A stretch of 30,813 bases of DNA from a virus. The stretch's first letter is position 1, and each line of letters opens with the position of its first letter. The stretch is taken from positions 1-30,813 of IMG/VR virus record IMGVR_UViG_3300008050_000186; one strand, written 5' to 3'. The notes beneath the pieces are model-generated. The model searched no databases. It was not told where the DNA came from and saw nothing but the letters and a program-made list of their open reading frames with translations. Position numbers and translations under genes: made by a program. This document shows positions 1,955 through 27,671 of this stretch, piece after piece.

Positions 1955-3724
1955 ATGAAAAAACAAATACATTTTATGTCAGGTGTGCCTCGCTCCGGTT
2001 CTACGGTACTGGCGGCTATACTTAACCAAAACAAACAGACTCATGTTTCTACAACGTCAGGGTTAGTATTTGCTTTAGACGGGTTAGCTAATACTTGGCA
2101 CTCACAACAGCTATTAAATAATACAGATAAAGATAAGACCAAGTTAGCTAAAACAATGAATGCTATAATTAATACGTTTTATGAAGATTATAAAAACCCT
2201 GTTATTATAGATAAAGGCAGAGGTTGGCCCATTCCTGTTATTATGCAGTCTATGAGCCAAGTATTAGGTAGACTACCTAAAATTGTAGCTACTGTTAGAT
2301 CAATACCTGATTGTATGGCATCATTTGTTAGAGTAGCTAAACCAGATAATCTTGATAAATTTATGGAATCTGGAATACTAAGTACTCATTTAAAAGCAGC
2401 ATATTTAACTTTACAAACTGGTTATGAGTTTGCACCTGAATGTTTTTGCATAGTTGAATATGAAGACCTTATAGCTAATCCAAAAGCTCAACTTAAACGC
2501 ATCCATAAATTTTTGGAGTTGCCTGATTTTAATTATGACTTTACAGCGATTGATGGGACTAGCGTTCAGGAAGATGATGAAGAGCTACATCACTATGAAG
2601 GTATGCACAATATTCAGCCTGTGCTTGGAAAGCAGCACAACGAAGACCCCAAAGATGTACTAAAGCATTATTACAATTCGTTTTGTCAGCCTGAGTTTTG
2701 GCTTAAAAACCCTCGTACAACCCCTGAAATACATGACCTAGACCTTCAGTTAGCTGCTTCAAAAAGAGGCCACTTTGCAGAGGGTTGGCGGTTAAGTCAA
2801 CAAATAGAAAAAAATGAGCCTAATAATCATAGAGCTGCTTTTAATCGTGGATGGTATTTATTACGTCAAGGAGAAATTCAAAAGGGTTATCAGTTAATGG
2901 ATAGAGGACGTTTAATAGGAGTATTTGGTAATACTGTTACTTCACAATCACCTTGTTGGGACGGAAAATCAAAAGGTACAGTTTTATTATATTTAGAAGG
3001 TGGACTAGGCGATCAAATACATCAAGTACGATATGCTAAGTCTATTGCCGAAAAAGGTTGTAAAGTAATCGTATCTTGTTCTGGACAGCTTGCATCTTTA
3101 TTTGTAGATGTTGAGGGCGTGAGTTCTGTTGTTCAACATGAGATGTGTCACGGGGTTTACCATGACTTTTTAGTACACGGAATGTCAGCCGTTGTTCCAC
3201 TAGGATTAGAATTAAAAGACCTTTCTGGTATACCTTATATTACTAAACCTAAAAGTATTAGAGGTTTTAAAACCCGAATTGGTTTACGATGGCAAGGACA
3301 AACTGTATTTGAAAAAGAACATCAAAAGAAATTTCCTTATGATCTTTTATTTGATGCTGTAAAAGATGCAGATGCAGAGTTTATTTCTTTACAAAAAGAT
3401 GAGGGTGTAGAAGATTGTCCATCGTGGGTTAAACAAGTTCCTTTAGATACTTGGGAAGATACACGACAAGCTACTGCCTCATGTGATTTGGTTATTTCAT
3501 CTTGTACTTCAGTAAGCCATTTAGCAGCCGCAATGGGTGTAGAAACTTGGACAGTAATACCTGTTATGCCTTACTTCTTATATGCACAAGAAGGAGATAC
3601 TTGTCCTTATTATGATTCAATGAAACTAATACGACAAAAAGAATTTGGTAATTGGGAAGATCCTTTTAATTTAATTAAAGAAAAACTTACAAAAAATAAA
3701 CAAATATTACGGAGAATTGCATGA
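1955..3724 (+). CDS. Sulfotransferase - TPR - glycosyltransferase fusion
   Basis: This 589-residue protein seems to join three parts. Residues 5-250 resemble PAPS-dependent sulfotransferases: the 5'-phosphosulfate loop GVPRSGSTVLAAIL is at 10-23, a 3'-phosphate-binding segment TVRSIPDCMASF at 113-124, and VEYEDLIANP at 167-176. Residues 262-325 look like TPR helices (AEGW..SQQIEKNEPNNHRA). Residues 340-580 resemble GT9/TPR-associated glycosyltransferases, with YLEGGLGDQI (346-355), IGLRWQGQ (442-449) and DLVISSCTSVSHLAAAMG (511-528). It would transfer sulfate from PAPS and a sugar from a nucleotide donor to a glycan or protein. The acceptor is unknown. It is translationally coupled by ATGA to the second RCC1 gene and lies between the two adhesins, so it may modify adhesins or host surface polysaccharide. 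Its own ribosome site is weak. Confidence 0.72.
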   Translation: MKKQIHFMSGVPRSGSTVLAAILNQNKQTHVSTTSGLVFALDGLANTWHSQQLLNNTDKDKTKLAKTMNAIINTFYEDYKNPVIIDKGRGWPIPVIMQSMSQVLGRLPKIVATVRSIPDCMASFVRVAKPDNLDKFMESGILSTHLKAAYLTLQTGYEFAPECFCIVEYEDLIANPKAQLKRIHKFLELPDFNYDFTAIDGTSVQEDDEELHHYEGMHNIQPVLGKQHNEDPKDVLKHYYNSFCQPEFWLKNPRTTPEIHDLDLQLAASKRGHFAEGWRLSQQIEKNEPNNHRAAFNRGWYLLRQGEIQKGYQLMDRGRLIGVFGNTVTSQSPCWDGKSKGTVLLYLEGGLGDQIHQVRYAKSIAEKGCKVIVSCSGQLASLFVDVEGVSSVVQHEMCHGVYHDFLVHGMSAVVPLGLELKDLSGIPYITKPKSIRGFKTRIGLRWQGQTVFEKEHQKKFPYDLLFDAVKDADAEFISLQKDEGVEDCPSWVKQVPLDTWEDTRQATASCDLVISSCTSVSHLAAAMGVETWTVIPVMPYFLYAQEGDTCPYYDSMKLIRQKEFGNWEDPFNLIKEKLTKNKQILRRIA

Positions 3725-4995
3725 GCAAGGAGTGGCCGGGAGGAATTGTAAATAAAACTGCTCCTACTATTACTGCACCTACTGATGGAGAGGGAGGCAG
3801 TGCTTCTGGTGTGTGGTCATTAGATGAAGTAATGGTTCATGAAAAAGCAGGTAATTGGCCTAAGCCGAATAAAAAAAGACAGTTATGGGGTTTTGGCCGC
3901 AATGCTAATGGACAATTAGGATTAGGTGCTACTGGTGGAGATGGTGAAACACAAGCTCATACTTCTCCTATGCAAATAGGTTCATTAACTGATTGGGCGC
4001 AAGTTGCTTTGGGTGGGGCACATTCTATAGCAACAAAAACAGACGGTACATTATGGTCATGGGGTTATAATTCTACTGGTCAATTAGGACAAGATAACAC
4101 TACTCAGCTTGTTTCCCCAAATCAAGTGGGTGCATTAACTACTTGGGGTTCTGATGTAGGACCATCAGGCGATGGTAATGCTCAAATATCTTGTGGAAAT
4201 GGCACATCACATATGATTATGAATGATGGTACATTGTGGAGTATGGGTAGAGGTAGTCAAGGTCAATTAGGTATGAATAATACTACTATTTATTCTTCAC
4301 CCGTTCAGGTTGGATCATTAACTAATTGGCGAGAATTAGCTGTTGGTGGCGGTTACAAGTTTATGCACTCAATTAAAACTGATGGAACTTTATGGGCTTG
4401 GGGAAAACAAGACAATGGACAACTGGGTGACGGCTCTACTACTGCTAGAAGTTCTCCAGTTCAAATTGGATCAGTAACAACTTGGGTAACTGTTGCTTGT
4501 GGTTATTCTCATACAATAGCAGTAAAAGAAGACGGTACTTTATGGGCAGTAGGTCACAACGATGATGGACAATTAGGAGATGGTTCTACTACTGATAGAA
4601 GTTCTTTAGTACAAATAGGTTCACTTACTAATTGGAAATTTGTAGCGGCAGGAGATAGAAATAGTCTTGCCGTTAAAACTGATGGCACTATGTGGGCTTG
4701 GGGAAATAACGGTTACGGAGTAGTAGGTGATGGTTCTACCACTAATAGAAGTTCTCCAGTACAAATAGGTTCTTTAACAACTTGGAGAAAAGTATTCACG
4801 CGACACAGAAATTCAGGTGCGATTAAATCAGACGGCACTTTGTGGGGTTGGGGTTATAACGATGAAGGAATATTAGGTATTGGTGCAGGTACTAATAGAA
4901 GCTCTCCAGTACAAGTAGGTACAGCAACTAACTGGCTTAGTAGTGGGCCTGGAGATTCACAAGGTATTCATTCATTATATTTGAGAGAAGGATAG
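3721..4995 (+). CDS. RCC1-type seven-bladed beta-propeller adhesin, copy B
   Basis: A 424-residue paralogue of the protein at 719. The start overlaps the preceding stop as ATGA, with GGAG about 7 bases upstream. Residues 1-53 repeat the anchor module (GGIVNKTAPTI, SGVW, WPK). Seven RCC1-like blades follow, with the cores TDGTLW.WG, GQLGDGSTT and SSPVQIGS. Blade 1 carries an insertion (ATGGDGETQAHTS) and blade 2 an extra loop (DVGPSGDGNAQISCGNG), so loops differ from copy A while the core is kept. This fits diversification of a receptor-binding surface on a common scaffold, which is inference. There is no signal peptide and no enzymatic motif. One blade-6 stretch is identical in DNA to copy A. 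Confidence 0.8.
   Translation: MSKEWPGGIVNKTAPTITAPTDGEGGSASGVWSLDEVMVHEKAGNWPKPNKKRQLWGFGRNANGQLGLGATGGDGETQAHTSPMQIGSLTDWAQVALGGAHSIATKTDGTLWSWGYNSTGQLGQDNTTQLVSPNQVGALTTWGSDVGPSGDGNAQISCGNGTSHMIMNDGTLWSMGRGSQGQLGMNNTTIYSSPVQVGSLTNWRELAVGGGYKFMHSIKTDGTLWAWGKQDNGQLGDGSTTARSSPVQIGSVTTWVTVACGYSHTIAVKEDGTLWAVGHNDDGQLGDGSTTDRSSLVQIGSLTNWKFVAAGDRNSLAVKTDGTMWAWGNNGYGVVGDGSTTNRSSPVQIGSLTTWRKVFTRHRNSGAIKSDGTLWGWGYNDEGILGIGAGTNRSSPVQVGTATNWLSSGPGDSQGIHSLYLREG
3880..4960 (+). repeat. Seven tandem RCC1 blade repeats (copy B)
   Basis: Seven blades of about 150 bases, more diverged in DNA from each other than those of copy A. The 38 bases at 4741-4778 are identical to 1679-1716 in copy A, and both lie in blade 6. 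Confidence 0.75.
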
Positions 4996-14464: not shown

Positions 14465-14986
14465 ATGTCACTTAGCGGATTAGACATTACTCTAGCAGAA
14501 GAAGATAAATTTGAAAACGATACTTTAATTACTGTAGCTATAAAAAGTAAAGAAGGTTTTCTTAGGACTCCTGAATGGGATAATGCACAATGGACATGGG
14601 GATATGGAACAGAAGCACCTCTTCCAAAAGACCGAAATGCAGAAGTTCCTACAGATTTAACCATAACTAGAGAACAAGCTCAAGAAGAACTTCTTGGTTA
14701 TTTAGATAGAGAAATAATAAATAAATTAAATACTTATTCAGAAAGAAATAATTATAATTGGAATGATACTCAAAAAGAAGGTCTTACAAGTTTCTTATAT
14801 AATTTAGGTTTTGGCGCACTAAATCAACTTACTGCTAATGGTACACGTACTGATGAAGAAATAGCAGAAAAGATGCTAGAATATAATAAAGAAAGAAATC
14901 CAGAAACAGGAGAACTTGAAGTAAGCAGAGGCTTAACAAAAAGAAGAATAGACGAAAGTGATTATTTTAGAAGAGGCATGAATTAG
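14465..14986 (+). CDS. GH24 phage lysozyme (endolysin or virion-associated muramidase)
   Basis: The 173-residue protein matches T4-lysozyme-type muramidases, which cleave the beta-1,4 bond between N-acetylmuramic acid and N-acetylglucosamine. The catalytic Glu is E30 in KSKEGF, with D39 and T44 at the spacings expected for the Glu-Asp-Thr triad, followed by WGYGT. Later motifs fit too: NDTQKEGLTSFLYNLGFGAL (about 95-114) and the C-terminal GLTKRRIDESDYF. There is no signal peptide, so release would depend on the holin. AGGAAG at 14453-14458 supports the ATG at 14465. The same frame, however, is open upstream from 14381 with an acidic, Pro-rich linker-like translation, which raises the possibility of fusion to the preceding ejection protein. 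Confidence 0.8.
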   Translation: MSLSGLDITLAEEDKFENDTLITVAIKSKEGFLRTPEWDNAQWTWGYGTEAPLPKDRNAEVPTDLTITREQAQEELLGYLDREIINKLNTYSERNNYNWNDTQKEGLTSFLYNLGFGALNQLTANGTRTDEEIAEKMLEYNKERNPETGELEVSRGLTKRRIDESDYFRRGMN

Positions 14987-17900
14987 TGGGAATAAAAAAG
15001 AATACTGAAAATATCTGGGGTGTTTTAAATGCCGATAATATTATAGCGCCTGAAAAAACACAAATAGGATTAAGTGGGCCTTCTAGTTTTATTCAAAAAA
15101 ATCATGCTGATTTAAGGAATGATCCACGTTATCAAGCAGAAGCCGAAAAGTTTCTTAGTTACTTATCAGAACAAGAAGGGATGGCAGAAAAATTAACAGG
15201 TGGTGCAATATCTAACGATATTTTTGAAACACTTAGAGATGAAGAAGGCCGTTTACTTACAGTAATTGATAGAGCTAGAGTTTTAAGAGAGGCTCCTGAA
15301 GAAATTAAACAAACATATAGATATCTTAGAGATAATTTTGAAGCTTCTAAAGCAGGTAGTTTTGGCGAAATGTTAAAAGCTACTTTTGATAGAGGTGTAG
15401 ATATGTTTGCTGATCCTATTAATTTAGCTTTTGCATTGGTAGCTCCGGGTTTAGGTAGTGCTGTTGCTAGGACTTCTACAGGCGCAGCAACTAGAGTTTT
15501 AACAAGTCAAGCAGGTAAACAAAATGTTAAAAAGACTTTAAATAATATTGCAGCGGCTAATGCAGATTCTTTATCTCCAACAGTTACAGGCGTATCCGCA
15601 GCATTTGAAGGCGGTATTTGGACAGGCGTAGAAAATGCTAATAGACAAGATATAAATATAACTACTGGATTACAAGATGCTTTTAGTGATGGGGACTTTG
15701 CCTTGTCTGTAGGATTAGGTATTGGGCTTGGAGGTAGTTTAGGTTATGGTGCAAGTAAATTATTTTCTAGACGTACAACTAATGTAGCTGAAACTGGACA
15801 AAGTACTACCCCCACAGTATTGCCTCCTCCAAATTCTTCAATTAATTCAAGTGCTAGTAGTACTGCTGAACAAGAAGCAGAAACGCTTGTATCAGGATTA
15901 TTTAATAAAGTTGAATTAAAAACTGATAGAAGAGGTAAACAATATTACGATAGGCAAGGAAATCCTGAAGTAAATTTAACATTATTAAAAAATTTAAAAA
16001 AAGAATTAGGCAATCAATACGATGATGTAAGAATAGCTAATATAATACTGGCAATTAAAGATACTATTTTTAAAAAACTTACACCTGACGAAGTAAAGCA
16101 AGGTTTAAACTTTGCTACTAAACAAAGAACTTTACAAATTAATGATATTGATCCTGAAGTATTAAAATTGTTTGAACAATATGGATTAAAAAATTCTGAA
16201 ATTCAAACAGCTATAACTTTTGTTAAAAATACTTATATGAAAGATGCAGAAAAAACTGCAACAAAAGTTTTAAAAGGTCAAAAAGTAAAAGTAACTCAAA
16301 CTATAGATTTAGACGATGCACAAATAGGCAGTCTTGCCGACCAACTAGCTGCTAAAACTGGTGGAGGACAAAGAACTTCTGAAATTTTAACAGATGCTAT
16401 ACAAGAAGCTAATGCTACCAGAGGTATAACTAATATAGCTAGAGAAAGTTCTATACTAAGAAAAGTTTTAGATAAAACTTCTGACTTTAATGCTAGATAT
16501 TTAACAGGAAAAGTTACTGGTATTTTTAATAAGTATCAGGGTCTTAGCCCTAATGTTATAAATTCTTTTCAAGAAAGAATTGTATCTGCTGTATCTAATT
16601 CTTGGAAAAGAGGAGAGTCTATAGTAAGAGATACAAATGATTATGGTAATGTATTTAATATAGAATTTGGTAGACTTGGAATGGCTTGGAAAGCTATTTA
16701 TGATCCTATTGCTGAAACAACTCTTAAAGGTGGATATAAAGAAGAAATAGATACTTTACTTTCTAATGCTATTAGAACTAATGATATAAAAACTTTAGCT
16801 AGAGAAACACAACATTTAGGTAAAGATGTAAGAAAATCTTTATTTAATATAGTTAAATTTGGTAGAAGTCAACTAAAAGAAATGGGTGATGAATCACAAG
16901 GAAAAGGATTAGTAAATAATTTAATAGATAATTACCTACCTAGATTATGGAAAAGATCAGAAATAGAAAATAATAAAGAAGATTTTATTAGTCTTCTTGA
17001 AAAGAATGTTAATTGGAAACAACACGTAGATTTAGAAGAAACTATTGATGCCAATGGAAATATAATTAGACGGCAGCTTACTAATAAAGAAAAAGCAGAA
17101 AAAGTATGGGAAGAATTATTAGATATTAAATTTCAATTTGGTAATGATTCTGGTACAGGCATGAATAGTTTTTTTGCTAGAAGACAATTAGAATTAAAAG
17201 ATGAAACTGCCTTTACTAAATATTTAGATAACGATTTAAATAATGTAATGCTTAGTTATCATCGTTCTACTGCTAAAGCTATAGCAAAAGATACCGTATT
17301 TGGTGTAAGAAATATAGAAGATTTTAATACTACTTGGTTTCCGGCTTTAGAAAAAGAAATGAGAGCTAATGGAGCTACAACAGAATTAATAAACCAAGCA
17401 AAGAAAGACATGACTGATGTATATCAAAATGTTACTGGAGAAGGTTTAGATAGATATAAGGGGTGGAAAGGCACGGCAGCAGATTCATATATGTTATTTA
17501 ATAGAATGGCTTTATTACCCTTATCAACACTATCAAGTCTTTCAGAAATATTTATTAACATTTCTAAAGCAGGTGTTAAAACATCTTTCGCAGGATACAG
17601 AGATGCTATATTTAGTGGTTCTAAAAAAATGTTTGATGATTCTTTAAACGGTCTTCAAAAATCTTTTAATATGACTAGTAAAGAAGCAATGCACGAACTC
17701 AATCAAATGGGTACGGCTTTAGATCAAGCTTTTGCTGACTACGCAGATAGATTAGGAGGTGATGCACTATCTAGTCCTAGAATGAGAAATGTTAGTAATA
17801 AATTTTTTAGGTTTACACTTTTAGACCAATGGACTAAAGGAGTTCAAACAGCTTCATATATTATTGGAAAAAGATTAATAGCAGAAAATTTAGAAAGCAT

Positions 17901-20900
17901 TGCTTCACATATGCCTTTAATACAAACAGGTAAAATATCTAGAAGAGTACAAAGACAAATAGATGAACTAGCTGATCTTGGTATAAATTATAATGAAGGT
18001 GTATCTTGGCTAAATAAAGGAGCTAATATAGAAGACGATTTTTACAGAAAACTTAAAGAAGGAGCAAATACATATACTAATGAAGTTATTTTAAATCCTA
18101 GCGCACAGTCAGGTATAAAACCTATGTATATGTCAAATCCAAAAACTGCAATCCTCGGTCAACTATTAGGTTACCCCGCAGCTTTTACTAATACAGTTAT
18201 GAAAAATATGGCTAGACAAATAGCTAGAAATCCTGAGACTGCTTTAACTCAACATATTCCTGCTGTAGGAATTATGACAGCAGTAGCTATGTTTACTAAT
18301 GCTGCTAGAACTCAAGGCGAATCTTTGGAGGGTAAACCCCATGAAGTAATTGGTGGTGCTTTGGCTAGAGCAGGATTTAATGGTTTACCTGCTGATATGT
18401 TTACAAGAGGTAGAACGGCTGCTGAAATTTATCAAAGTCCTACTGCTTATATGACAGGGTTTGGACCGCTTTGGGGTGATGCTTATAAACTGGGAGTTAG
18501 TGCAGATGTATTTTCTATACTAGGACAAAAAATTCCGGGCTACGGAGCTTTTAATGCAATTTTTGGTGCTACTGAAGCCACTGAAGATTGGCCTGATAAG
18601 TATAGAGAAATGTTACGGGCCGGAGATACTTTTTTTCAAAAATCTACTACTCCAGAACAAGATGTAGTTTCTAGAAAAAACTGGGAAAAAGGCGGTGAAG
18701 TTTATAATGTACCACAAGTTACTGAAGAACCTGATGAACGTATAGATAGAATGACAGGACTTCCATATGATGTACAAGCGGGAGGAGCTTTTATAGACGA
18801 AGAAGATCGCCAAGGTTTTGCATTAGGAACAATAGTTTCAAAGGCGGCTCCGGTTTTAAAATCTAAACTATCAGAAGCTCTTGGTGAATTAGCAGATAAA
18901 GGTGAAAATATTCCTATTAATAGGTTAGTAAAAAGATTACAAAACAGAGGTGTTCGGAAAGATGAAATAGAGGCGGCAGGTATTGATGAAGACGGTAATG
19001 CATGGCATTCACCAACACAAGAATCCGAAGAAGCAGCCGCTCAAATTAGGACTGTAGTTACTAGATCAGGTAATCTAGCTTATACTCCTGATGGTTTAAG
19101 AGCTATAGATAAAGCTAGAATGGATAAACCTTTAATTGATTCTAACTTTGTAACTGCAAAAGAAACTTTATTAGAACATAATACAGCATTAGAAAAATTA
19201 GAATTTGATGCTGAGCTTGCCGAACGAGGAATTCCTTATGATGGCAAACAGCTTGAGGCAGATTTAATAATAAATGAAGAAGGCGCATTTTTTGACGAAT
19301 ATACTCCCCTAGATGTTAATGATTTAACATTAGAAACTAGAATATTTCGTGATCCTAGAGGCAAGCAAATAGGTGCTGAATCTAAACATTTTGTTCTTAA
19401 TTTGCCAAAGGGTAGTGCGGCTATTAAAGCGGGATATAAAGACGATCCTTATAGTTATCATGTAAGATTTGATGAGATTGATCCCGCTCTTAGAGTTTTT
19501 GAAATGCAAAGTGATTTAGCAATAGGTAGAAAAACTAGGTTGGCCTTATATGATATTGTGTTTGAGCCAACGAAGTGGAAGAAAAAATCTAATGATAATG
19601 TGTATAATGTATTGTTAGATTCATTTAATGTTAATAAAAAAGATATTAAATTTTCAAAAGAACAAGGCAAACAACTAGGTATAGATGTAAAAAACTTAAA
19701 TGCTTTATATAAAGAAGCTGCAAGTATGCGTAAAAACATTAAAGAATTTGCTTTGGAAGATGAAAAGCTTTATCACTTAGATACATTATTCGTGCAATAT
19801 GACTTAAATTTAGAAAGTTTTGTAAAAGAAAGTGATCTTATAGCCGATTTAAAATCTTATATAGAAAAAACAAAATATTTACCCCAACGTGGAATAAATA
19901 AAGATATAAAAAATTATATATCAAAATTTGAGTCCCAAAATATTTTAAAAAATAAAATAACAGATAAAGTACAAGATACTCTTAATGCAATTAATATATC
20001 AAAAGTTATACCTGAAATAGATGTTTCTCAAAATATAATAAATAGAATGATAGCTGAAACAAAAGAAAGAGGGCTTCCCGAAATTAGTTTTTTGATTGGT
20101 AGAGATACTCCAGAAAGTAGAAAATATATGGGTGTCCCGGCTTATAAAGAATGGAAGGTTAAGCCTAATAGATCAAAAGGTCATATGCAAAGAAGTTATC
20201 ATATTCAAGAATATTATGAAGATACAATAGCTCCACAAGTACAAAAAATTGCAAAAAAAATAGGAGCTACTACTCGTTGGGACGATAAAGGATACTTAAC
20301 TATAGTATTACCTGAAAAAGAATTTACTTTGCCTATGTATAAAAATGAAGGTGGATATATTTCTCGTCAAAAATATATGGCAGGTACGTTAGCTAGAACA
20401 GGTGCTAATATAATAAAAGGTTTATGGCACGGTTCTCCACATAGTGTTCCTACTTTAAAAGCTAGTAAATCTATTGATTCTAATGCTCTTCAATTAGGCA
20501 GAGGAGTAGCTGCAACAAAAGATAAAAAAATAGCTGAGTCATATCTTGATGCAACACCCAACCGTTCTGTAGGTTTATCAGAAAAAGCTCTTTTAGAAGA
20601 AAGAACTGCTAGAGGTTCTTCTACTCCTACTTTATATGAATTAGAAGCACATATAAATGAGGATGAAATAATTAGAACAGGTACAAAGTTTGCCGATCAA
20701 CCGACTCCTGTGCAGACTAGAATAGATGCTATAGCAAAAGACTATGATATTCAGTTGTCAGATAAAGACAAAGATAGTAAAAGAATATTTTATATTTTAA
20801 AAAGAAACTTAGAAGATAAAGATTTAAAAGCAGAAGATATTTTTAAAAACTATGGAATTAAAGCTGCAAAAAGAGATTTAAGGGAAACTTCTTTAGAAGG

Positions 20901-22377
20901 ATTAAGTCTTGGAGGAAATGAAGAATATTCTTTTTATGATGATAGTGTACTAGAAATTGTAAGTAAAAACATTAAAACAGGAGGGCCAGAAAATCTTATA
21001 CAAGGAGGTACAGCTTTAATAAAGAAAGCAAAAGAAGCGGGAATGGATACTGAGCGCATAGTGTATCACGCTGCTGGTGAGCGATGGGCTACAGACGGAA
21101 TAACTTTTGATGAAAAATATTTTCTAGATAATTACATGGATGATATTAGTCCCGAAAATCATATGGTCTATTTAGGTACTGATGCAGATATATCTTCTTT
21201 TTATGCACAAAAAAAATGGAACAGTAAAGCTGAAGCAGCCGACAGAGCAGCAGGAAGAAAAATTAAAAAAGACTACTGGACAACCCCCGAAATACTTCCT
21301 ATGTTTTTAAAGGGACCGGGATTAAAATTAAAAATAGATAAATGGGCACCCTCTACTTATAAATCTCCAGACAACAAGGCTATGCCGTGGGGAAAATGGT
21401 TTATACAGGATGCTATGGATCAATTAAATATTAAAACCCCTGTAACTAAAAAGTCTGATATGATAAAAGAAATTTGGAAGGAAGCAAAAAAACAAGGCTA
21501 TGGATATATAGAATTTATTAATGTTGAAGATGTTAGCAAAGCTGCTGATATAACTCCCCAAACTCAGATCATACCTTTAGGCCCAGATAAAGTAAAATCA
21601 ATTTATGCAAACTATAATCCAGATGCTACTAAAGAAGACCTAATGCGAAATCTATTTTCAGCCACAGGCGGCTCAATCAGAAAGCAATACAAAGACGGTG
21701 GAATTCTTAAAGGCGGTTTAGGAAACAGAATTGTTAGAAGTTTAAGATTTTTACTTAATACAAAAGATGCTATAAACTATTATAAAGAAGGCTATAGACA
21801 AGAAGCAATAGAAGCAGGAGCTAGAGCAGTTGGAATAGGTGCAAGAGAACAACGTCTTAATGAAAGAGATGCAGCTAAAGCTATTAATGATGCAGTAGCA
21901 GAAGGAATACTTAAAGAAGAACACGCTGTACCAGTAGATGATTATGGGTTTACTAAAGGAAATGTTGACGAACTTTTTAATGCGGTCAACCACGGTCTTT
22001 TATCTTTCAGATATGGTACTAATCCTGCTATGAGAGGGCTTCTTCAATTAAAAGAAGGTGAAAGATTTGGACAAGCAGCAGAAAATCCAATAGATAGTTC
22101 TGTAGATTCTTTTAATAATTCAAGAGGTTTTTATTTAGAACAACAAGGACTAACTGAATCCGCAGCTTTACAAGAAATGATTAGAAGTAAACAAAGAACA
22201 GATTTAAAATTAAATCTAGGCTTACCTCTAGTGCGAGGGCAAGATTTTATTTTTAATTCAGAAGATTTAAAAGCCGTAGGAACACAAGAAACATTAGGCC
22301 CATTATATACTGGTAGGATTGAACGCAATAAAGGCGGTAAATTACTAGGCAGCTTACATAGGAGCAACTGTAAATGA
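14986..22377 (+). CDS. Giant multidomain ejection/polyvalent protein with two ADP-ribosyltransferase-like domains
   Basis: This 2463-residue protein starts at a GTG that shares a base with the lysozyme stop; AGAGG at 14972-14976 is the ribosome site. Residues 1-1200 are mostly helical virion-type sequence with hydrophobic stretches at about 144-160 and 830-855. Residues 1290-1780 resemble a polyvalent-protein domain: LSEALGELADKG with RGVRKDEIEAAGI, then SKHFVLNLP, YHVRFDE and EMQSD near 1506. Two regions look like ART-PolyVal domains. The first is at about 1811-2000 (GLWHGSPHSVP). The second is at about 2022-2220 (RIVYHAAGERW, VYLGTDADISSFYA, then IPLGPDKVKSIYANYNPDA). Such domains would ADP-ribosylate host proteins after injection. 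Gly-Gly motifs mark several domain borders. Domain assignments are from remembered motifs. Confidence 0.65.
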   Translation: MGIKKNTENIWGVLNADNIIAPEKTQIGLSGPSSFIQKNHADLRNDPRYQAEAEKFLSYLSEQEGMAEKLTGGAISNDIFETLRDEEGRLLTVIDRARVLREAPEEIKQTYRYLRDNFEASKAGSFGEMLKATFDRGVDMFADPINLAFALVAPGLGSAVARTSTGAATRVLTSQAGKQNVKKTLNNIAAANADSLSPTVTGVSAAFEGGIWTGVENANRQDINITTGLQDAFSDGDFALSVGLGIGLGGSLGYGASKLFSRRTTNVAETGQSTTPTVLPPPNSSINSSASSTAEQEAETLVSGLFNKVELKTDRRGKQYYDRQGNPEVNLTLLKNLKKELGNQYDDVRIANIILAIKDTIFKKLTPDEVKQGLNFATKQRTLQINDIDPEVLKLFEQYGLKNSEIQTAITFVKNTYMKDAEKTATKVLKGQKVKVTQTIDLDDAQIGSLADQLAAKTGGGQRTSEILTDAIQEANATRGITNIARESSILRKVLDKTSDFNARYLTGKVTGIFNKYQGLSPNVINSFQERIVSAVSNSWKRGESIVRDTNDYGNVFNIEFGRLGMAWKAIYDPIAETTLKGGYKEEIDTLLSNAIRTNDIKTLARETQHLGKDVRKSLFNIVKFGRSQLKEMGDESQGKGLVNNLIDNYLPRLWKRSEIENNKEDFISLLEKNVNWKQHVDLEETIDANGNIIRRQLTNKEKAEKVWEELLDIKFQFGNDSGTGMNSFFARRQLELKDETAFTKYLDNDLNNVMLSYHRSTAKAIAKDTVFGVRNIEDFNTTWFPALEKEMRANGATTELINQAKKDMTDVYQNVTGEGLDRYKGWKGTAADSYMLFNRMALLPLSTLSSLSEIFINISKAGVKTSFAGYRDAIFSGSKKMFDDSLNGLQKSFNMTSKEAMHELNQMGTALDQAFADYADRLGGDALSSPRMRNVSNKFFRFTLLDQWTKGVQTASYIIGKRLIAENLESIASHMPLIQTGKISRRVQRQIDELADLGINYNEGVSWLNKGANIEDDFYRKLKEGANTYTNEVILNPSAQSGIKPMYMSNPKTAILGQLLGYPAAFTNTVMKNMARQIARNPETALTQHIPAVGIMTAVAMFTNAARTQGESLEGKPHEVIGGALARAGFNGLPADMFTRGRTAAEIYQSPTAYMTGFGPLWGDAYKLGVSADVFSILGQKIPGYGAFNAIFGATEATEDWPDKYREMLRAGDTFFQKSTTPEQDVVSRKNWEKGGEVYNVPQVTEEPDERIDRMTGLPYDVQAGGAFIDEEDRQGFALGTIVSKAAPVLKSKLSEALGELADKGENIPINRLVKRLQNRGVRKDEIEAAGIDEDGNAWHSPTQESEEAAAQIRTVVTRSGNLAYTPDGLRAIDKARMDKPLIDSNFVTAKETLLEHNTALEKLEFDAELAERGIPYDGKQLEADLIINEEGAFFDEYTPLDVNDLTLETRIFRDPRGKQIGAESKHFVLNLPKGSAAIKAGYKDDPYSYHVRFDEIDPALRVFEMQSDLAIGRKTRLALYDIVFEPTKWKKKSNDNVYNVLLDSFNVNKKDIKFSKEQGKQLGIDVKNLNALYKEAASMRKNIKEFALEDEKLYHLDTLFVQYDLNLESFVKESDLIADLKSYIEKTKYLPQRGINKDIKNYISKFESQNILKNKITDKVQDTLNAINISKVIPEIDVSQNIINRMIAETKERGLPEISFLIGRDTPESRKYMGVPAYKEWKVKPNRSKGHMQRSYHIQEYYEDTIAPQVQKIAKKIGATTRWDDKGYLTIVLPEKEFTLPMYKNEGGYISRQKYMAGTLARTGANIIKGLWHGSPHSVPTLKASKSIDSNALQLGRGVAATKDKKIAESYLDATPNRSVGLSEKALLEERTARGSSTPTLYELEAHINEDEIIRTGTKFADQPTPVQTRIDAIAKDYDIQLSDKDKDSKRIFYILKRNLEDKDLKAEDIFKNYGIKAAKRDLRETSLEGLSLGGNEEYSFYDDSVLEIVSKNIKTGGPENLIQGGTALIKKAKEAGMDTERIVYHAAGERWATDGITFDEKYFLDNYMDDISPENHMVYLGTDADISSFYAQKKWNSKAEAADRAAGRKIKKDYWTTPEILPMFLKGPGLKLKIDKWAPSTYKSPDNKAMPWGKWFIQDAMDQLNIKTPVTKKSDMIKEIWKEAKKQGYGYIEFINVEDVSKAADITPQTQIIPLGPDKVKSIYANYNPDATKEDLMRNLFSATGGSIRKQYKDGGILKGGLGNRIVRSLRFLLNTKDAINYYKEGYRQEAIEAGARAVGIGAREQRLNERDAAKAINDAVAEGILKEEHAVPVDDYGFTKGNVDELFNAVNHGLLSFRYGTNPAMRGLLQLKEGERFGQAAENPIDSSVDSFNNSRGFYLEQQGLTESAALQEMIRSKQRTDLKLNLGLPLVRGQDFIFNSEDLKAVGTQETLGPLYTGRIERNKGGKLLGSLHRSNCK

Positions 22378-23672
22378 AAACATTACTTGGTTTAATAATA
22401 GCTACTGCACTACTGGTATCAGCTAGTAAAGTATATTCAAATGAACCTACTTATGTAGATGATGTAGCTTCTATTATTAATAACAACTGTGTTGTCTGTC
22501 ACCGCGAAGGCGGTATAGGCCCAATGCAGTTTGAAAACTACGAACAGGTTCGCCCGTGGAGTCCTTTGATTCAGCTTAAAGTAGCTAACAGAGAAATGCC
22601 GCCCTATGCTTATGATGAAGGCATTGGCATACAGGAATTACATGGTGATTGGAGGCTCTCTCAGGCCGATATAGACACGATAGTAGAGTGGGTTAATACA
22701 GGATCAGAGTACGGAGATACTGACGTTGTAGTGCAGCCTCCGAGCCTCTCAGACCCCGATCAGTGGAACTTCTACGAAAACTTTGGAGAGCCTACGTTGG
22801 TTATACCATCTACTCCAATAGATATTCCGGCTACAGGAAACGATCTCTGGCACAAACATAATGTAGCCAGTGGACTAACTGAGGACAGGTGCATTAAAGC
22901 CATCCAAGTTAAGCCAAGAGGAGAGGCTAAGAGTGTGGTTCACCACGCTAACAGTACTGTTACTTTAGAAGGCGAGAGGTACGGTATGCTCACTGAATAC
23001 GCTATGGGTAAGTGGGGTGAAATAGTACCAGAGGGGGTGTGTAGAACCATACCTGCTAACGCAGAGATAGCTTGGGACATTCATATGTTCCCCGGAGGTC
23101 TTGGAGCTATAGCCCCCGGAACTATTATTAAAGATAATGTAGTAGAGATAGGGCTGTGGTTGTATTCTCCAGAGGAATCCCAAGAACTTGCTTACGAACA
23201 AGACCTGAGACTATACAGGATTAGCGATCAAGCTGATATTGTTATCCCGCCCAATGGTTATTCTATGACACAAGGCTTTCACTCCTTTGATCACCCAGTT
23301 CGTATAGACTCATGGCAACCACATGGACATTTAAGAATGAATGCAGCAAGCTTTGAGATATTCTACCCCGATACTGGGAGAACAGAGCAGATCAGTCAGG
23401 TATCTAACTGGAGTGCAACGTGGCATCACAGTCATTTGTATGATCCAGACTATGCCCCACTACTACCAACAGGAGCAGTGTTAGTTTTAAAACAATGGTA
23501 TGACAACACAGCAAACAACCCTAACAATCCTGATCCTGATATGTGGGTTGTAGGAGGTAGTAGGACAGGGGATGAGATGACTCACGCATGGATAGCAGTA
23601 ACACATCTTGATGAAGAGAAGTATCAAGAACTTATAACTGAGAGAAACAACAAGAGGTTAGTAGCTCAATGA
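22374..23672 (+). CDS. Exported cytochrome c - PHM/DBM-type copper monooxygenase fusion
   Basis: A 432-residue protein with a Sec signal peptide (residues 1-22, TLLGLIIATALLV core). A c-type haem module follows: C39-V-V-C42-H43, with M75 in REMPPYAY as probable axial ligand and IVEWVNTG closing the domain near 110. Residues 130-412 match the copper type II, ascorbate-dependent monooxygenase fold. Expected ligands are H190 and H191 (VVHHAN) and H237 (DIHMFPGG) for CuH, and H317 and H319 (QPHGHL) and M402 (GDEMTHAW) for CuM, with YDNTANNPNNPDP before the Met loop. Family members hydroxylate substrates with O2; substrate here is unknown. It would act in the periplasm, with haem feeding electrons to copper (inferred). 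It overlaps genes on both sides by ATGA. Confidence 0.85.
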   Translation: MKTLLGLIIATALLVSASKVYSNEPTYVDDVASIINNNCVVCHREGGIGPMQFENYEQVRPWSPLIQLKVANREMPPYAYDEGIGIQELHGDWRLSQADIDTIVEWVNTGSEYGDTDVVVQPPSLSDPDQWNFYENFGEPTLVIPSTPIDIPATGNDLWHKHNVASGLTEDRCIKAIQVKPRGEAKSVVHHANSTVTLEGERYGMLTEYAMGKWGEIVPEGVCRTIPANAEIAWDIHMFPGGLGAIAPGTIIKDNVVEIGLWLYSPEESQELAYEQDLRLYRISDQADIVIPPNGYSMTQGFHSFDHPVRIDSWQPHGHLRMNAASFEIFYPDTGRTEQISQVSNWSATWHHSHLYDPDYAPLLPTGAVLVLKQWYDNTANNPNNPDPDMWVVGGSRTGDEMTHAWIAVTHLDEEKYQELITERNNKRLVAQ

Positions 23673-23854
23673 AACATTTAATACTTACAGCTTTACTACT
23701 GACAGGCTGTAGCAACTTCGGAGCGCCTAGTGGAATGTCCTTACACTTACAAGAGTACCCTCAATTTAACTGGATTGATCAAGATATTTTTATGTTGAAT
23801 GTTAGGACTTGTAGAAGCTTAGACTACTGCGCTGCTGAACAACTATTTAATTAA
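23669..23854 (+). CDS. Small lipoprotein coupled to the monooxygenase
   Basis: The 61-residue product starts inside the monooxygenase stop (ATGA). It has a short lipoprotein signal: basic start MKH, hydrophobic core LILTALLL and lipobox LLTGC with C14 as the lipidated residue. Ser at +2 suggests outer-membrane sorting. The mature 48 residues contain two more Cys (C48 and C53 in TCRSLDYCA), which could form a disulfide or bind metal. No family is recognised. Overlap with the monooxygenase gene suggests a shared function such as anchoring or metal handling. A lysis (outer spanin-like) role is the alternative, though it lacks the Pro-rich character of Rz1. Confidence 0.65.
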   Translation: MKHLILTALLLTGCSNFGAPSGMSLHLQEYPQFNWIDQDIFMLNVRTCRSLDYCAAEQLFN

Positions 23855-23870
23855 TATAGAAGGTGAATAT

Positions 23871-24059
23871 ATGTTAGCTTTATATACAGAAGAACAATTA
23901 GGTGCAGCGTATCAAGTATATGCGCGGGTACACGCCTCAAAAGAAATAGAGATAGTAGACTTTGAAACATACAGAAGTATATTTGAATATCAATATATGG
24001 CTATGACTAAAGCTGATGAAATTTTTGACGGCACATTTGACACAACGATAGAGCATTAA
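23871..24059 (+). CDS. Unknown 62-residue acidic protein, last late gene
   Basis: The start has a good ribosome site (AGAAGGTGA, 23858-23866) before the ATG. The product is acidic, soluble and predicted helical (YTEEQLGAAYQVYARVHASK, then YRSIFEYQYMAMTKADEIF). It has no signal peptide, Cys or recognisable motif. It is the last plus-strand gene, and its TAA overlaps the stop of the converging minus-strand operon by three bases. I cannot assign a function. Proximity to the monooxygenase and lipoprotein may be accidental. Confidence 0.55.
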   Translation: MLALYTEEQLGAAYQVYARVHASKEIEIVDFETYRSIFEYQYMAMTKADEIFDGTFDTTIEH

Positions 24060-24274
24060 GATAAACTTTGCACTTCCTTTTCTATATAAGTATGCAAGTC
24101 TTCTAGTTTAAAGCACCCTTCTTTAACTATTTTATTAATAATAGGTATGTAATCTTTATTAAATATTTTTTCTATTTCCTTTACTGGTAAGTGTTTAAAT
24201 TCAGATATTATATTCCCATCTCTTGCAATAAATATTCTAAACGAAACAAGATTCCCTTCTTTTTTATTGTTCAT
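24056..24274 (-). CDS. Unknown 72-residue protein at the end of the nrd operon
   Basis: This is the last gene of the minus-strand operon. AAGGAGG lies just upstream of the ATG, the strongest ribosome site in the neighbourhood. The product opens with a basic NKKEG segment, then a short beta stretch (LVSFRIFIARDGNIISEF) and charged helices (PVKEIEKIFNKDYIPIINKIVKEG). It has one Cys, no membrane segment and no known motif. It is 9 bases from nrdB, so a role linked to nucleotide reduction is possible but unproven. Small glutaredoxins often sit here in phages, but it lacks a CxxC motif and is not one. Confidence 0.55.
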   Translation of the reverse strand: MNNKKEGNLVSFRIFIARDGNIISEFKHLPVKEIEKIFNKDYIPIINKIVKEGCFKLEDLHTYIEKEVQSLS

Positions 24275-24283
24275 ACTACCTCC

Positions 24284-25264
24284 TTAGTCTTCTAAACGCA
24301 GACTTTTAAATTGAACAGTTTCTATATTACCTTTGATGCCTCCTTTCATATAAGTAGTAGCTCTCCCTTCAAAAAAGTTTTGATGCTCTACTCCTAGTAC
24401 ATCATCTAACCAAACAAGCGGGTTATCTTTTACTTCAAAATTAGGTTTTAAACCTAGTTGTAGTAAACGCCTGTCTGCTATATATCTAATATACTCCTTC
24501 ATTTCAGACTTAGTAAGTCCTTGAATGTCTCCCATTTCAAATACTAAATCTAAAAACTTATCTTCTAACTTAACCATTTCTCTGCAAGCTTGGTATATTT
24601 CTTTCTTAAAATCATCTGTCCAAAGATGTATATTCTCTTTCATAAATTCTCTAAAGAGATTAGTCATTGCTTCAACGTGTAACGACTCATCTCTTATACT
24701 GTAAGTTACTATCTGTCCCATGCCTTTCATCTTACCAAAGCGCGGGAAGTTTAAAAGAATTGCAAAGCTGCTAAAGAGTTGTAGTCCCTCAGTAAAGCCT
24801 GAATAGATTGCTAAGTTTTTAGCTATGCTTTCTTTGTTAGATACTTTAAAGGGCACCGCGTTAATGTAGTCGTGCTTGTCGGCCATAGCTTCATATTCAG
24901 AAAAAGCTTTGTACTCTGTATCAGGCATATTTACAGTATCTAATAACAAGCTGTAAGCGTGTTGATGTATTGATTCCATGTTCGCAAAAGAAGACATCAT
25001 CATTCTAGCTTCTGGTTTCTTAAAAGCCCTCATGTATTTATCTATATAACAAGACGCTACATCCACATCAGACTGCGTAAAGAGTCTAAATATCTGAGTC
25101 AATAAATTCTTTTCAGACTCATCCATGTCCTGCCAATCTTTAACATCATTGTGCAGGGGTACATCTTCCGGCAACCATATCATTTGATTCTGCTGCACGT
25201 AGTAATCAAACATCCACGGGTAATCAAAAGGTTTATAATAATCTCTTGTTCCTAATAAGCTCAT
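24284..25264 (-). CDS. nrdB: Ribonucleoside-diphosphate reductase class I, beta subunit
   Basis: The 326-residue protein carries the di-iron/tyrosyl radical site of class I NrdB. Visible ligands are an Asp in FTQSDVDVA (66 or 68), E97 and H100 in MESIHQHAY, E159 in SGFTEGLQL, and E193 and H196 in RDESLHVEA. Y104, seven residues after E97, is the radical tyrosine, so this is the canonical tyrosyl type rather than the Phe-containing class Ic. The radical is passed to NrdA to make deoxynucleotides from ribonucleotides. The C-terminal tail would dock to NrdA. The ATG overlaps the upstream membrane-protein stop. Two genes separate it from nrdA in the same operon. Confidence 0.95.
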   Translation of the reverse strand: MSLLGTRDYYKPFDYPWMFDYYVQQNQMIWLPEDVPLHNDVKDWQDMDESEKNLLTQIFRLFTQSDVDVASCYIDKYMRAFKKPEARMMMSSFANMESIHQHAYSLLLDTVNMPDTEYKAFSEYEAMADKHDYINAVPFKVSNKESIAKNLAIYSGFTEGLQLFSSFAILLNFPRFGKMKGMGQIVTYSIRDESLHVEAMTNLFREFMKENIHLWTDDFKKEIYQACREMVKLEDKFLDLVFEMGDIQGLTKSEMKEYIRYIADRRLLQLGLKPNFEVKDNPLVWLDDVLGVEHQNFFEGRATTYMKGGIKGNIETVQFKSLRLED

Positions 25265-25551
25265 TTAGATTCCTTCATTAAATTAGTTATTGATTCAAAA
25301 TCATTTTTTGCATTAGTTAATTTGTTGTGTAAGTACATAGCAGACCAACACCCTAAGACTGCTCCGGTTGCAAGCTTCCACACTAAGTCCCAACTAGCCC
25401 CTAGTTTTACTATGTTAATAATTATATATACTTCTGTAAAGGCCATAGCCAAACTAAATACAGGTACAAATAAATAATTATTAAACGCAACATTGCGTTG
25501 TTGAAATGCTTTAACGAATACAGAAATATAACTAGCTATTATTAAGTACAT
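25261..25551 (-). CDS. Three-span membrane protein between nrdA and nrdB
   Basis: The 96-residue protein has hydrophobic segments at about 1-15 (MYLIIASYISVFVKAF), 26-48 (YLFVPVFSLAMAFTEVYIIINIV) and 58-76 (WKLATGAVLGCWSAMYLHNK). A basic loop (QQRNVAFNNY) lies between the first two, and a charged C-terminal helix follows. I associate this layout, with FVKAFQQRNV after the first span, with a conserved unnamed membrane protein of marine and Vibrio phages; its function is not known. AGGAG lies upstream of the ATG, and the start overlaps the previous gene by 20 bases. It is not a holin by position, as it belongs to the replication operon. Confidence 0.65.
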   Translation of the reverse strand: MYLIIASYISVFVKAFQQRNVAFNNYLFVPVFSLAMAFTEVYIIINIVKLGASWDLVWKLATGAVLGCWSAMYLHNKLTNAKNDFESITNLMKESK

Positions 25552-25852
25552 TAAACTCTGCTCCTATCTCTGCTATAATTTCCCAATATCTTGTAACCAT
25601 TCCTTTTGGAATTACCATGACAGCATTAACATACTCTTCATCCTTTTTGCTGTGGTAACGATCAGTACATAATATAATTTCATTATCATTATCCGCTACT
25701 AAATAACCTACGCTTGATCTAAGCACAGGTTTTAATTTTCTAGCATCAGATATGAGATGATCCTCAGTATCTATCCAAGCATCTTCCCACTCAACCTGCA
25801 TGATACAACCTAATAGTGCATCATGGTGCGGATTATTTGGTTTATCCTTCAC
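25532..25852 (-). CDS. Unknown conserved-type phage protein after nrdA
   Basis: The 106-residue frame can start at a GTG at 25852, overlapping the nrdA stop by 11 bases with GAGGGG upstream. It can also start at an ATG 17 codons later (MQVEWEDAW); the second would suit the apparent domain start better. The core VEWEDAW, then SVGYLVADNDNEIILCTDR, then MVIPKGMVTRYWEI resembles a short phage protein I have seen near nucleotide-metabolism genes: a small beta sheet closed by a helix after an IPKG turn. No catalytic residues are evident. It has no membrane segment. Function unknown. Confidence 0.6.
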   Translation of the reverse strand: MKDKPNNPHHDALLGCIMQVEWEDAWIDTEDHLISDARKLKPVLRSSVGYLVADNDNEIILCTDRYHSKKDEEYVNAVMVIPKGMVTRYWEIIAEIGAEFNVLNNS

Positions 25853-27671
25853 AACTTATACACCCCTCTTCCTCTAAATTAATTTTAGGTATTTTAATAT
25901 TAACATTCTCTGTACTACGGGCAGCGTTAGAACGTAAGTAGTATAAAGATTTAAGTCTATGTATACCCGCCCAATGTATATCGTTTAAATACTGTAAGAA
26001 ATTGTTGTGAGTTTCTTGGTCTGCTTCTATAGGTGGAGATTTAAAAAATAAATTAACACTTTGACTTTGACATATATACTCTTGACGCATAGCAGCGTGT
26101 TCTATAATCCATATTTGATTTATCTCTGGTGCTGTTTTAAATATTTTCTTTTGTTCATCAGATAAAATATCTAGGTGCTGCACTGAACCTTCATTTGCTG
26201 CTATATCTTTCCATATCTCTTCTCGTTTTTTTCCAGTAGGAACAAGCTCATATAATAAATCATCAAGATATTTGTTTCTAACTTTAAAGCTGCCAGATAA
26301 TGTCTTGTGTGTATAGACATTAGCTCTATTAGGTTCTATAGAGGGGCTAGTAGCACCACATATAATAGAACTAGAAGCGTTAGGAGCTACGGCAAGAAGA
26401 TGTGCGTTGCGTTTACCACTACCTTTCATGTCGGGAGCCTCACCCCGTTCTTCTCCTAGTTGTCTTGTGGCTTTGTCGGCTCTGTCTTTTATAAAAGAAA
26501 AAGCTTTGTTGTTAAAACTTGCAGCATACATACTTTCAAAAGGTATGTTATTCTTTTGTAAGTAACTATGGAAACCCATTGCCCCTAAACCAATAGACCT
26601 TTCTCGCATAGCTGAGTAGGCTGCTTTAGAATATCCGGGCTTATCACCAACTAAATCAATAAAGTTTTCTAGTACATTATCTAGCATAGTAATTAAATCA
26701 GATATAAAGTTATCTTCTTTAGACCACTCATTAAAGTATTCTAGGTTCACACTAGATAAACAGCAAACCGCTGTTCTATTTTCATCAGTTGGCAAAGTTA
26801 TTTCAGAACATAAATTACTTTGCTTTATTGTTAAGCCTAGTTTCTTTTGTTCCTCTGGCAGAGCAGCATTACAATTATCTATGTTAATTAAATAAGGCTC
26901 ACCAGTTTCCATTCGGGTCTGTATTATTTGAAACCATAAATCTCTTGCTTGTACAATCTTTACTGCTGTATTAGTTTTAGGGTCTATCAATCTCCACTCA
27001 TCATCTTCTGCTACAGCATTTAAAAATTCATTAGTAATATTAATTGCATTGTGTAGATTCAAACACTTCCTATTTAAATCACCGCCCGTAGTCTTACGCA
27101 TATTAATAAACTCTTCTACTTCGGGGTGTGATATATTTATATAAGCGGCATAGCTTCCTCTTCTAGTTACGCCTTGGTTAAAGGCCAACATCTGAGAGTC
27201 TACAACGTGCATAAAGGGTATTGATCCAGTACTGCGGCTACCGTTAGAAGTATCCACGCCATTGCTGCGAATATCACCCCAATGTCCACCGATGCCTCCA
27301 CCTCCACTTGCAAGCCAAATGTTCTCATCATAGTGAGCAGATAAACCATCCCTAGAGTCAGGTACATAATTAAGAAAACAACTGATAGGTAAACCCCTAC
27401 TTGTACCCCCATTAGAAAGTATAGGAGTACTGAAGCTAAACCAATGATTACTAGCGTACTCGTAAAGTCTCTGTCCAAGATTAAAATCAGTATGTCCTTT
27501 ATAAGTTGCACCAAAAATAGCGGCCCTAGCAAAAGCTTGTTGAGCATGAGTTTCACCTTCCCATAAATATCTGTCTGTTATAGTTTCTTTAGAAAAAGAA
27601 TTTAATAAGTTTTCTTTTTCATAGTTAATATGAATACCTAAATATGGCTGAACATCAATCTTCTCAGTCAT
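25842..27671 (-). CDS. nrdA: Ribonucleoside-diphosphate reductase class I, alpha subunit without ATP-cone
   Basis: The 609-residue catalytic subunit reduces ribonucleotides to deoxyribonucleotides. The redox Cys pair is C98 (PISCFLNY) and C303 (AVCCLSS); C304 is an extra neighbour. The active-site motif N286-L-C288-S-E290 supplies the thiyl radical Cys and its partners. Y577 and Y578 (LYYLRS) carry the radical path from NrdB. C604 and C607 (CISC) at the C-terminus re-reduce the active site. The protein is about 150 residues shorter than E. coli NrdA and starts directly at the catalytic domain, lacking the N-terminal ATP-cone that mediates dATP feedback. AAGGAG precedes the ATG. The start overlaps a small basic ORF. 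Confidence 0.95.
   Translation of the reverse strand: MTEKIDVQPYLGIHINYEKENLLNSFSKETITDRYLWEGETHAQQAFARAAIFGATYKGHTDFNLGQRLYEYASNHWFSFSTPILSNGGTSRGLPISCFLNYVPDSRDGLSAHYDENIWLASGGGGIGGHWGDIRSNGVDTSNGSRSTGSIPFMHVVDSQMLAFNQGVTRRGSYAAYINISHPEVEEFINMRKTTGGDLNRKCLNLHNAINITNEFLNAVAEDDEWRLIDPKTNTAVKIVQARDLWFQIIQTRMETGEPYLINIDNCNAALPEEQKKLGLTIKQSNLCSEITLPTDENRTAVCCLSSVNLEYFNEWSKEDNFISDLITMLDNVLENFIDLVGDKPGYSKAAYSAMRERSIGLGAMGFHSYLQKNNIPFESMYAASFNNKAFSFIKDRADKATRQLGEERGEAPDMKGSGKRNAHLLAVAPNASSSIICGATSPSIEPNRANVYTHKTLSGSFKVRNKYLDDLLYELVPTGKKREEIWKDIAANEGSVQHLDILSDEQKKIFKTAPEINQIWIIEHAAMRQEYICQSQSVNLFFKSPPIEADQETHNNFLQYLNDIHWAGIHRLKSLYYLRSNAARSTENVNIKIPKINLEEEGCISCEG

Follow-up and report, generated by a model that had tools for sequence, protein, structure and literature searches.

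The window analysed here is the whole of the IMG/VR virus record IMGVR_UViG_3300008050_000186 (30,813 bases). Its gene A, an open reading frame (ORF) on the plus strand at 22374-23672, exactly where the preliminary description had placed it, encodes a protein of 432 amino acids that joins a cytochrome c to a copper domain predicted to fold like those of peptidylglycine alpha-hydroxylating monooxygenase (PHM) and dopamine beta-monooxygenase (DBM), the textbook animal enzymes for amidated hormones and noradrenaline. The predicted fold and the conserved ligands support the membership of protein A in the PHM/DBM copper monooxygenase superfamily, and we give a probability of roughly 0.6 to the reading that it is a working, cytochrome-fed dicopper monooxygenase of the host periplasm. 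The preliminary description had taken the gene for an odd piece of phage cargo; its location in a phage stands and its singularity does not, since gene A is widespread in marine phages and one bacterial family is rich in close homologues.

Predicted fold and metal ligands of protein A

The AlphaFold2 model of protein A, built from 98 related sequences, has a mean predicted local distance difference test score (pLDDT) of 87.9 and a predicted template modelling score (pTM) of 0.84. When this model was compared with the PDB by Foldseek, ranks 1-31 were all PHM or DBM (E 5.4e-13 to 8.1e-9) and rank 32 was an unrelated capsid (E 1.6e-6). Structural alignment with VIA-align gave Z scores of 16.3-19.0 for 26 PHM/DBM rows over 228-269 residues versus 8.4 for the next fold, and the overlay on rat PHM that had been proposed at the outset (1phm) gave a Z score of 18.5 and a root-mean-square deviation of 3.1 over 245 residues. 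Furthermore, a profile of 18 superfamily members matched human DBM (4zel) at E 1e-4, the sole PHM/DBM chain matched by a sequence profile. In the profile alignment, read by eye, each of the copper ligands of DBM (HH, H, HxH and M) falls opposite the same residue in the A superfamily. Model and profile, with its six aligned ligands, thus bear out the earlier proposal of an exported cytochrome c fused to a PHM/DBM-type dicopper fold.

In PHM and DBM, electrons enter at CuH, and O2 is split and the substrate hydroxylated at CuM. All the residues to which the preliminary description had pointed (CVVCH, REMPP, HH at 190-191, H237, HxH at 317/319 and M402 in a GDEM loop) were confirmed by script, and their conservation could be followed in an alignment of 98 sequences, comprising 75 above 55% identity (window included) and 23 remote paralogues. 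C39, C42, H43, M75, H190, H191, H237, H317 and H319 are each found in 75/75 close sequences and M402 in 74/75, with one gap. Among the remote paralogues, C39, C42, H43, M75, H190 and M402 are kept in 23/23 and H191 and H237 in 22/23. Five further residues, C173, C223, H351, H352 and H354, occur in 75/75 close and 0/23 remote sequences. The gene is under purifying selection, with dN/dS values of 0.056-0.072 in eight pairs of the window and another phage. At the N-terminus, a probable signal peptide, called by visual inspection of the sequence, precedes a region with the features of a class I c-type cytochrome: CXXCH (C39, C42, H43), three helices (27-38, 56-71 and 97-108 in the model) and a distal Met (M75).

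Several observations weigh against this reading. The search with cytochrome profiles that had been suggested did find PF13442 (residues 29-79) and PF00034 (32-109) in protein A, both of them under the cut-off (18.9 bits versus cut-offs of 21.3 and 27), with one still weaker match to Haem_bd; in the relatives, PF13442 and PF00034 are found at E 0.01 in 73/98 and 49/98 sequences, respectively. Pfam shows no copper domain in protein A, PF03712 and PF01082, for which a match had been sought, being absent at E up to 1, and PF03712 reaches E 0.01 or better in only two of the 98 aligned members. A profile of all 98 rows, dominated by the close family, retrieved no PHM or DBM from the PDB, its best rows being chance-like matches to SMC3 (E 0.0075). 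H317 and H319 are kept in just 6/23 remote paralogues, and the loss of HxH in the other 17 suggests that some superfamily members may lack hydroxylase activity; together with the failure of the 98-row profile to reach PHM/DBM chains, it indicates that the superfamily is not uniform. Finally, H351, present in 75/75 close sequences, stands where DBM and family B, a second phage family described below, have Gln (82/82 family B sequences). This column corresponds to the active-site Gln next to CuM (Q272 of PHM), which we do not treat as defining.

Other searches were negative as well. There was no match to protein A in the PDB by phmmer, nor in the NCBIfam and PHROGs scans; when the window's own record was searched for PF03712, nothing came up, and no control gave a match over the cut-off. 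In BFVD, 88 matches reached E 0.001 or better; the 50 listed have TM-scores of 0.29 at most and none carries the name of a monooxygenase, so that a PHM-like viral model could not be recognised among them. The link of protein A to PHM and DBM thus comes from the fold matches and the broader 18-row profile, not from single-sequence searches.

These features might also suit a protein that uses a PHM-like domain without hydroxylation, for periplasmic redox, for the handling of O2, reactive oxygen or nitric oxide, or as a copper carrier or sensor, protecting the infected cell. The invariant H351, H352 and H354 and the replaced Gln alter the surroundings of CuM, most of the remote paralogues are without HxH yet keep the haem and CuH ligands, and the conserved CR-x4-C motif of the small lipoprotein encoded next to gene A could bind metal. 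The six catalytic copper ligands of PHM and DBM are nevertheless kept in the close family and in family B, and the genes beside the bacterial homologues look catabolic, not protective. We give this alternative a small but real chance. On the main reading, protein A would be loaded with metal and haem and would be catalytically active.

Gene A and its partners in phage genomes

Gene A sits in a phage genome, as expected of a phage auxiliary metabolic gene. A second record, a contig of 53,281 bases from the same phage, matches the window at 99.9% or more over the window's full length and has the same gene A in the same place, in agreement with the phage-borne location claimed earlier. This contig ends in a 69-bp terminal direct repeat, has PHROGs for terminase, portal, major head, tail proteins, DNA polymerase and primase-helicase, and carries one copy of gene A and no family B. 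The isolates nearest to the polymerase fragment are the Pelagibacter phages HTVC115P (58%) and HTVC103P (54%); neither protein A nor protein B had a match in INPHARED (50,697 isolate records).

With bacterial genomes being rich in close homologues of A, one might suspect an artefact of assembly or binning, in which a bacterial gene was wrongly joined to a phage contig. Read mapping that exposed a chimeric host insertion had been named as a refutation; the 53,281-base contig, with its terminal repeat and its terminase, portal and major head genes, and 32 other contigs bearing the window's ribonucleotide reductase gene answer it with the same arrangement, and most phage A sequences fall outside the bacterial clade. 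We give the artefact practically no credence. Both it and a recent pick-up of A from a host were rejected, as the locus is conserved on independent contigs and the phage sequences lie mostly outside the bacterial clade.

Homologues had also been proposed as a check, and they were found in numbers. The scan of IMG/VR with A yielded 204 stretches in which a relative is encoded; the best 80 of 204 were kept, some being near-duplicates from different assemblies, and the window's reductase small-subunit gene is present in 32/80 of these loci. In the reverse survey, 80 loci were collected from the reductase: A is present in 19, absent within the available DNA in 39 (six of which have fewer than 3,000 bases to judge by), and 22 are too short. 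At a reductase identity of 85% or more, A is present in 18/19 readable loci (the exception is L231), versus 1/39 (L212) below 85%, and thus A marks one phage lineage. Other carriers are different phages. Among their contigs, one of 340 kb has tail-sheath genes, one of 335 kb, placed by binning in a bacterial metagenome-assembled genome, has a phage clamp loader and endolysin, and one of 115 kb has genes for PhoH and a baseplate lysozyme. Single-linkage grouping by backbone merged most of the phages and was not used.

In many large tailed phages the next gene encodes family B, a second cytochrome-PHM protein of about 410 amino acids with 27% identity to A. Scanning with B gave 115 relatives (the best 80 of 115 kept). 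In 76/80 B loci, A immediately precedes B and shares its strand, with a gap of -19 to 766 bases, the remaining four being cut off near a contig end. None of the 82 B sequences compared has lost its haem or copper ligands, apart from one with a gap at M402. The B model (pLDDT 79.5) likewise has PHM/DBM at Foldseek ranks 1-31, with structural Z scores of 13.5-16.4 versus 7.8 for the next fold. In 9/78 B loci a cytochrome c of 122 amino acids lies between A and B; the one tested is over the PF00034 cut-off.

The window's phage has no B and a putative lipoprotein of 61 amino acids instead. By tblastn the lipoprotein was found in 37/80 A loci (24/32 with the window's reductase and 13/48 others), and by a stricter pattern in 33/80, with a common CR-x4-C motif. 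It was not found in 73 bacterial loci, nor in 99 genomes by a search that had no positive control and could easily miss a 61-residue query. In what was searched, the lipoprotein accompanies phage copies of A only.

These arrangements raise the possibility, which we put forward tentatively and as short of probable, of a mobile periplasmic oxidation cassette in diverse marine phages, which would divert host respiratory electrons and oxidise a dissolved organic compound for the phage. Such a cassette might consist of one or two O2-activating dicopper monooxygenases with their cytochromes, sometimes a small cytochrome c, and the phage-only lipoprotein. If this holds, it would be a phage-run metabolism outside the inner membrane, of a kind not yet described.

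Around some of these loci we noted other genes. In the 340-kb tail-sheath phage contig, curlin-repeat-like and CsgG-like proteins (by eye) are encoded just before the A-B pair (L070:5480-9337). IscA- or IscU-like iron-sulphur carrier genes (by eye; L047:12832-13221, L080:13212-13571 and L061:11244-11618) come directly after A or A-B in several large phages.

In the window (Table 1), two genes follow gene A before its rightward cluster ends. The ATG of A shares bases with the stop codon of the virion-protein gene ahead of it, and the stop codon of A in turn overlaps the start of the lipoprotein gene. The G+C content over gene A is about 0.40-0.41 (1-kb windows, 22001-24000) versus 0.28-0.43 window-wide, and a scan of 21500-24500 found 12 promoter-like sites versus 9.3 expected and one terminator-like site versus 1.3 expected. 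Elsewhere in the window, two RCC1-repeat proteins (719-1930 and 3721-4995, Pfam run on the first only) flank a 589-residue protein with a sulfotransferase domain (PF13469).

Table 1. Features of gene A and of the genes beside it, in window coordinates
Feature	Position	Strand	Basis
Gene A (cytochrome c / PHM-like dicopper monooxygenase, predicted)	22374..23672	+	ORF, fold, conservation
Probable signal peptide, about residues 1-22	22374..22439	+	by eye; model helix 2-19
Cytochrome c domain, about residues 25-115	22446..22718	+	weak Pfam matches; model helices
CVVCH haem-attachment motif, residues 39-43	22488..22502	+	invariant in 98/98 aligned
REMPP, residues 73-77, with M75 the probable distal haem ligand	22590..22604	+	M75 in 98/98
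PHM/DBM-like two-lobed beta domain, about residues 137-413	22782..23612	+	structural matches span 137-417
H190-H191, probable CuH ligands	22941..22946	+	aligned with HH of human DBM; conserved
H237, probable CuH ligand	23082..23084	+	DBM alignment; conserved
H317-G-H319, probable CuM ligands	23322..23330	+	DBM alignment; conserved
H351-H352-S-H354, extra histidines of the close A family	23424..23435	+	family and DBM alignments
M402, probable CuM ligand, GDEM loop	23577..23579	+	DBM alignment; conserved
2463-aa virion/endolysin-type protein, directly upstream of A	14986..22377	+	PHROG 7348, 6958
61-aa putative lipoprotein with CR-x4-C motif	23669..23854	+	ORF; phage-locus comparison
62-aa ORF closing the rightward cluster	23871..24059	+	kept in 33/81 phage loci including the window's own
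Ribonucleotide reductase genes, convergent: small 24284-25264, large 25842-27671	24284..27671	-	PHROGs 86, 84

Bacterial relatives and the proposed role in the host

A scan of bacterial and archaeal genomes with A gave 180 relatives, from which 75 loci were kept. Two of these resemble phage contigs that were binned with bacteria (L082 judged by PHROGs, L094 by eye), and the other 73 have gammaproteobacterial or proteobacterial titles. In each of these 73, the best identity to A is 65-75%; at least two close copies are present in 44/73, up to five, and a remote paralogue also occurs in 41/73. The distribution is narrow. In the family of a Pseudohongiella single-cell genome (G002), presumably Pseudohongiellaceae, 68/99 genomes match A at E 1e-100 or better, with up to 10 matches per genome. 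At the level of its order, 5/194 genomes match, all five also in the family sample, and at the level of its class only 1/143 at E 1e-60, which is G002 itself. Six such genomes have 6-10 PF03712 matches each at E 1 or better, over the cut-off in 5/6, and control genomes have PF03712 matches in 3/14, none over the cut-off. The frequency of close homologues in one bacterial family suggests a trait that phages share with bacteria, not an invention of phages.

The bacterial copies have as neighbours MFS, cupin, PQQ dehydrogenase with cytochrome c, GMC oxidoreductase, NHL propellers and TonB receptors (the last by eye). NHL propellers, which might point to peptide amidation by PHM together with a PAL lyase, are found in 16/73 loci. 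Two of them matched rat PAM in its PAL domain (E 2e-21 and 2e-23), but TRIM-type NHL proteins scored higher. At one locus (L147:1553-3963), two NHL propellers lie near a bacterial A copy, and the one tested matches that domain at E 2e-21, less well than generic NHL proteins. A secreted companion of about 315 residues, with no Pfam or PDB match, stands beside the bacterial copies in 51/73 loci (e.g. L120:1810-2766). There are two side observations: an 857-residue protein that by eye has helix-turn-helix and NTPase traits is encoded near the bacterial copies in 19/73 loci (e.g. L113:4933-7506), and some bacterial paralogues (L157, L159, L160, L164 and L168) have an N-terminal thioredoxin-like region (by eye) ahead of cytochrome c and PHM-like parts, and thus three parts in all.

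These neighbourhoods also bear on another explanation, namely that A is a late factor directed at the virion or the envelope, either a part of the particle or a modifier of the host surface that affects the receptor or the adsorption of competing phages. The overlap of its start codon with the stop of the virion/endolysin-type gene would suit such a role, as would the place of the A-B pair near very long tail-like or tail-sheath genes in some large phages and the lipoprotein partner, which in what was searched stands beside phage copies only. The close bacterial homologues, on the other hand, stand in tandem, 2-5 copies at a time, at loci that are not of phages and that also contain dehydrogenase and transporter genes. 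Moreover, c-type cytochromes are matured in the periplasm, a need that suits an enzyme of the cell. We consider a virion or envelope role improbable.

The history of the family was traced with a tree of 79 proteins, of which 44 are bacterial, 32 come from phages and 3 serve as outgroup. All bacterial sequences lie on one side of a single branch (93/100; 91% of bootstrap trees) and the phage sequences form phage-only groups, with the pair L067 and L094 joining the base of the bacterial branch. The very long outgroup branches leave the root unsure, and the layout of the tree speaks for a long separate evolution in phages and for exchange between kinds of phage, not for a recent capture.

Returning to the monooxygenase reading, the phage would make A at the end of its virion-gene cluster, probably late, coupled to the small lipoprotein. 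The protein would be exported and its N-terminal cytochrome c (haem on His43 and Met75) matured in the host periplasm, where the fused haem may be reduced by the host's own pool of periplasmic cytochromes and hand the electrons to CuH (H190, H191, H237). The fusion of cytochrome and copper domain suggests such a direct supply of CuH by the haem and, with it, a donor other than ascorbate, which A might not need. O2 and substrate would then meet at CuM (H317, H319, M402) to give a hydroxylated product and water. Small organic compounds, oxidised in the host periplasm, are the most likely kind of substrate. The phage enzyme may supplement, to the benefit of the phage, an oxidation system of the marine gammaproteobacterial family that has many copies of it, and this little-studied family is the place to seek the substrate. 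PMC8371827 describes many oxygenases, and a suspected breakdown of algal metabolites or hydrocarbons, in the HTCC2089 clade, North Sea Gammaproteobacteria that stand beside Pseudohongiellaceae.

We believe that an infected ocean bacterium probably oxidises some compound outside its inner membrane by means of A. The conservation of the gene in many marine phages, its purifying selection and its frequent pairing with a second such enzyme suggest a reaction that is important during infection and widespread in the sea. If the reaction takes place, viruses would contribute to the O2-dependent turnover of dissolved organic matter, and would do so in a compartment where they are not usually given a part.

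Comparison with known systems

The PHM/DBM superfamily and phage-carried copper oxygenase genes (amoC, pmoC) are already known. What appears to be new here is a complete PHM/DBM-type enzyme with a built-in cytochrome in phages, as predicted from fold and ligands, together with its pairing with B and the phage-only lipoprotein. Searches of open-access literature without preprints, which leaves out most subscription journals, brought up no report of a PHM/DBM-type phage gene or of either pairing, and in the literature searched the bacterial branch of PHM/DBM proteins, a large one, is uncharacterised.

Rat PHM (1PHM, 1SDW) shares with A the predicted fold and the HH+H and HxH+M ligand sets; it differs in sequence (about 14% identity) and at the active-site Gln, where A has His. 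It depends on ascorbate, whereas A would have its cytochrome c domain in place of that dependence. Human DBM (4ZEL) is the best structural match to A (Z 19.0), but A has a cytochrome c at the N-terminal place; DBM itself carries a DOMON domain and a dimerisation region. The cytochrome c-PHM paralogues of marine Gammaproteobacteria (Pseudohongiella, OM182 and SAR86-cluster bins) are much closer, with 65-75% identity over most of the length and the same ligands. They nevertheless form their own branch and lie in tandem with oxidation genes, whereas the partners in phages are B, the small cytochrome c or the lipoprotein.

The proteins of amoC and pmoC have a fold unrelated to that of the PHM/DBM-type protein A. 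They are single membrane subunits of multi-subunit enzymes, whereas A would be a complete enzyme of the soluble type with its own electron domain. Phages carry amoC, a gene for a copper monooxygenase subunit (PMC8115048), and phage copies of pmoC are more than 90% like the host's (PMC7674155). Gene A resembles both in being a phage copy of a copper oxygenase gene and, in contrast to the host-like pmoC, appears to have been long separated from the bacterial copies.

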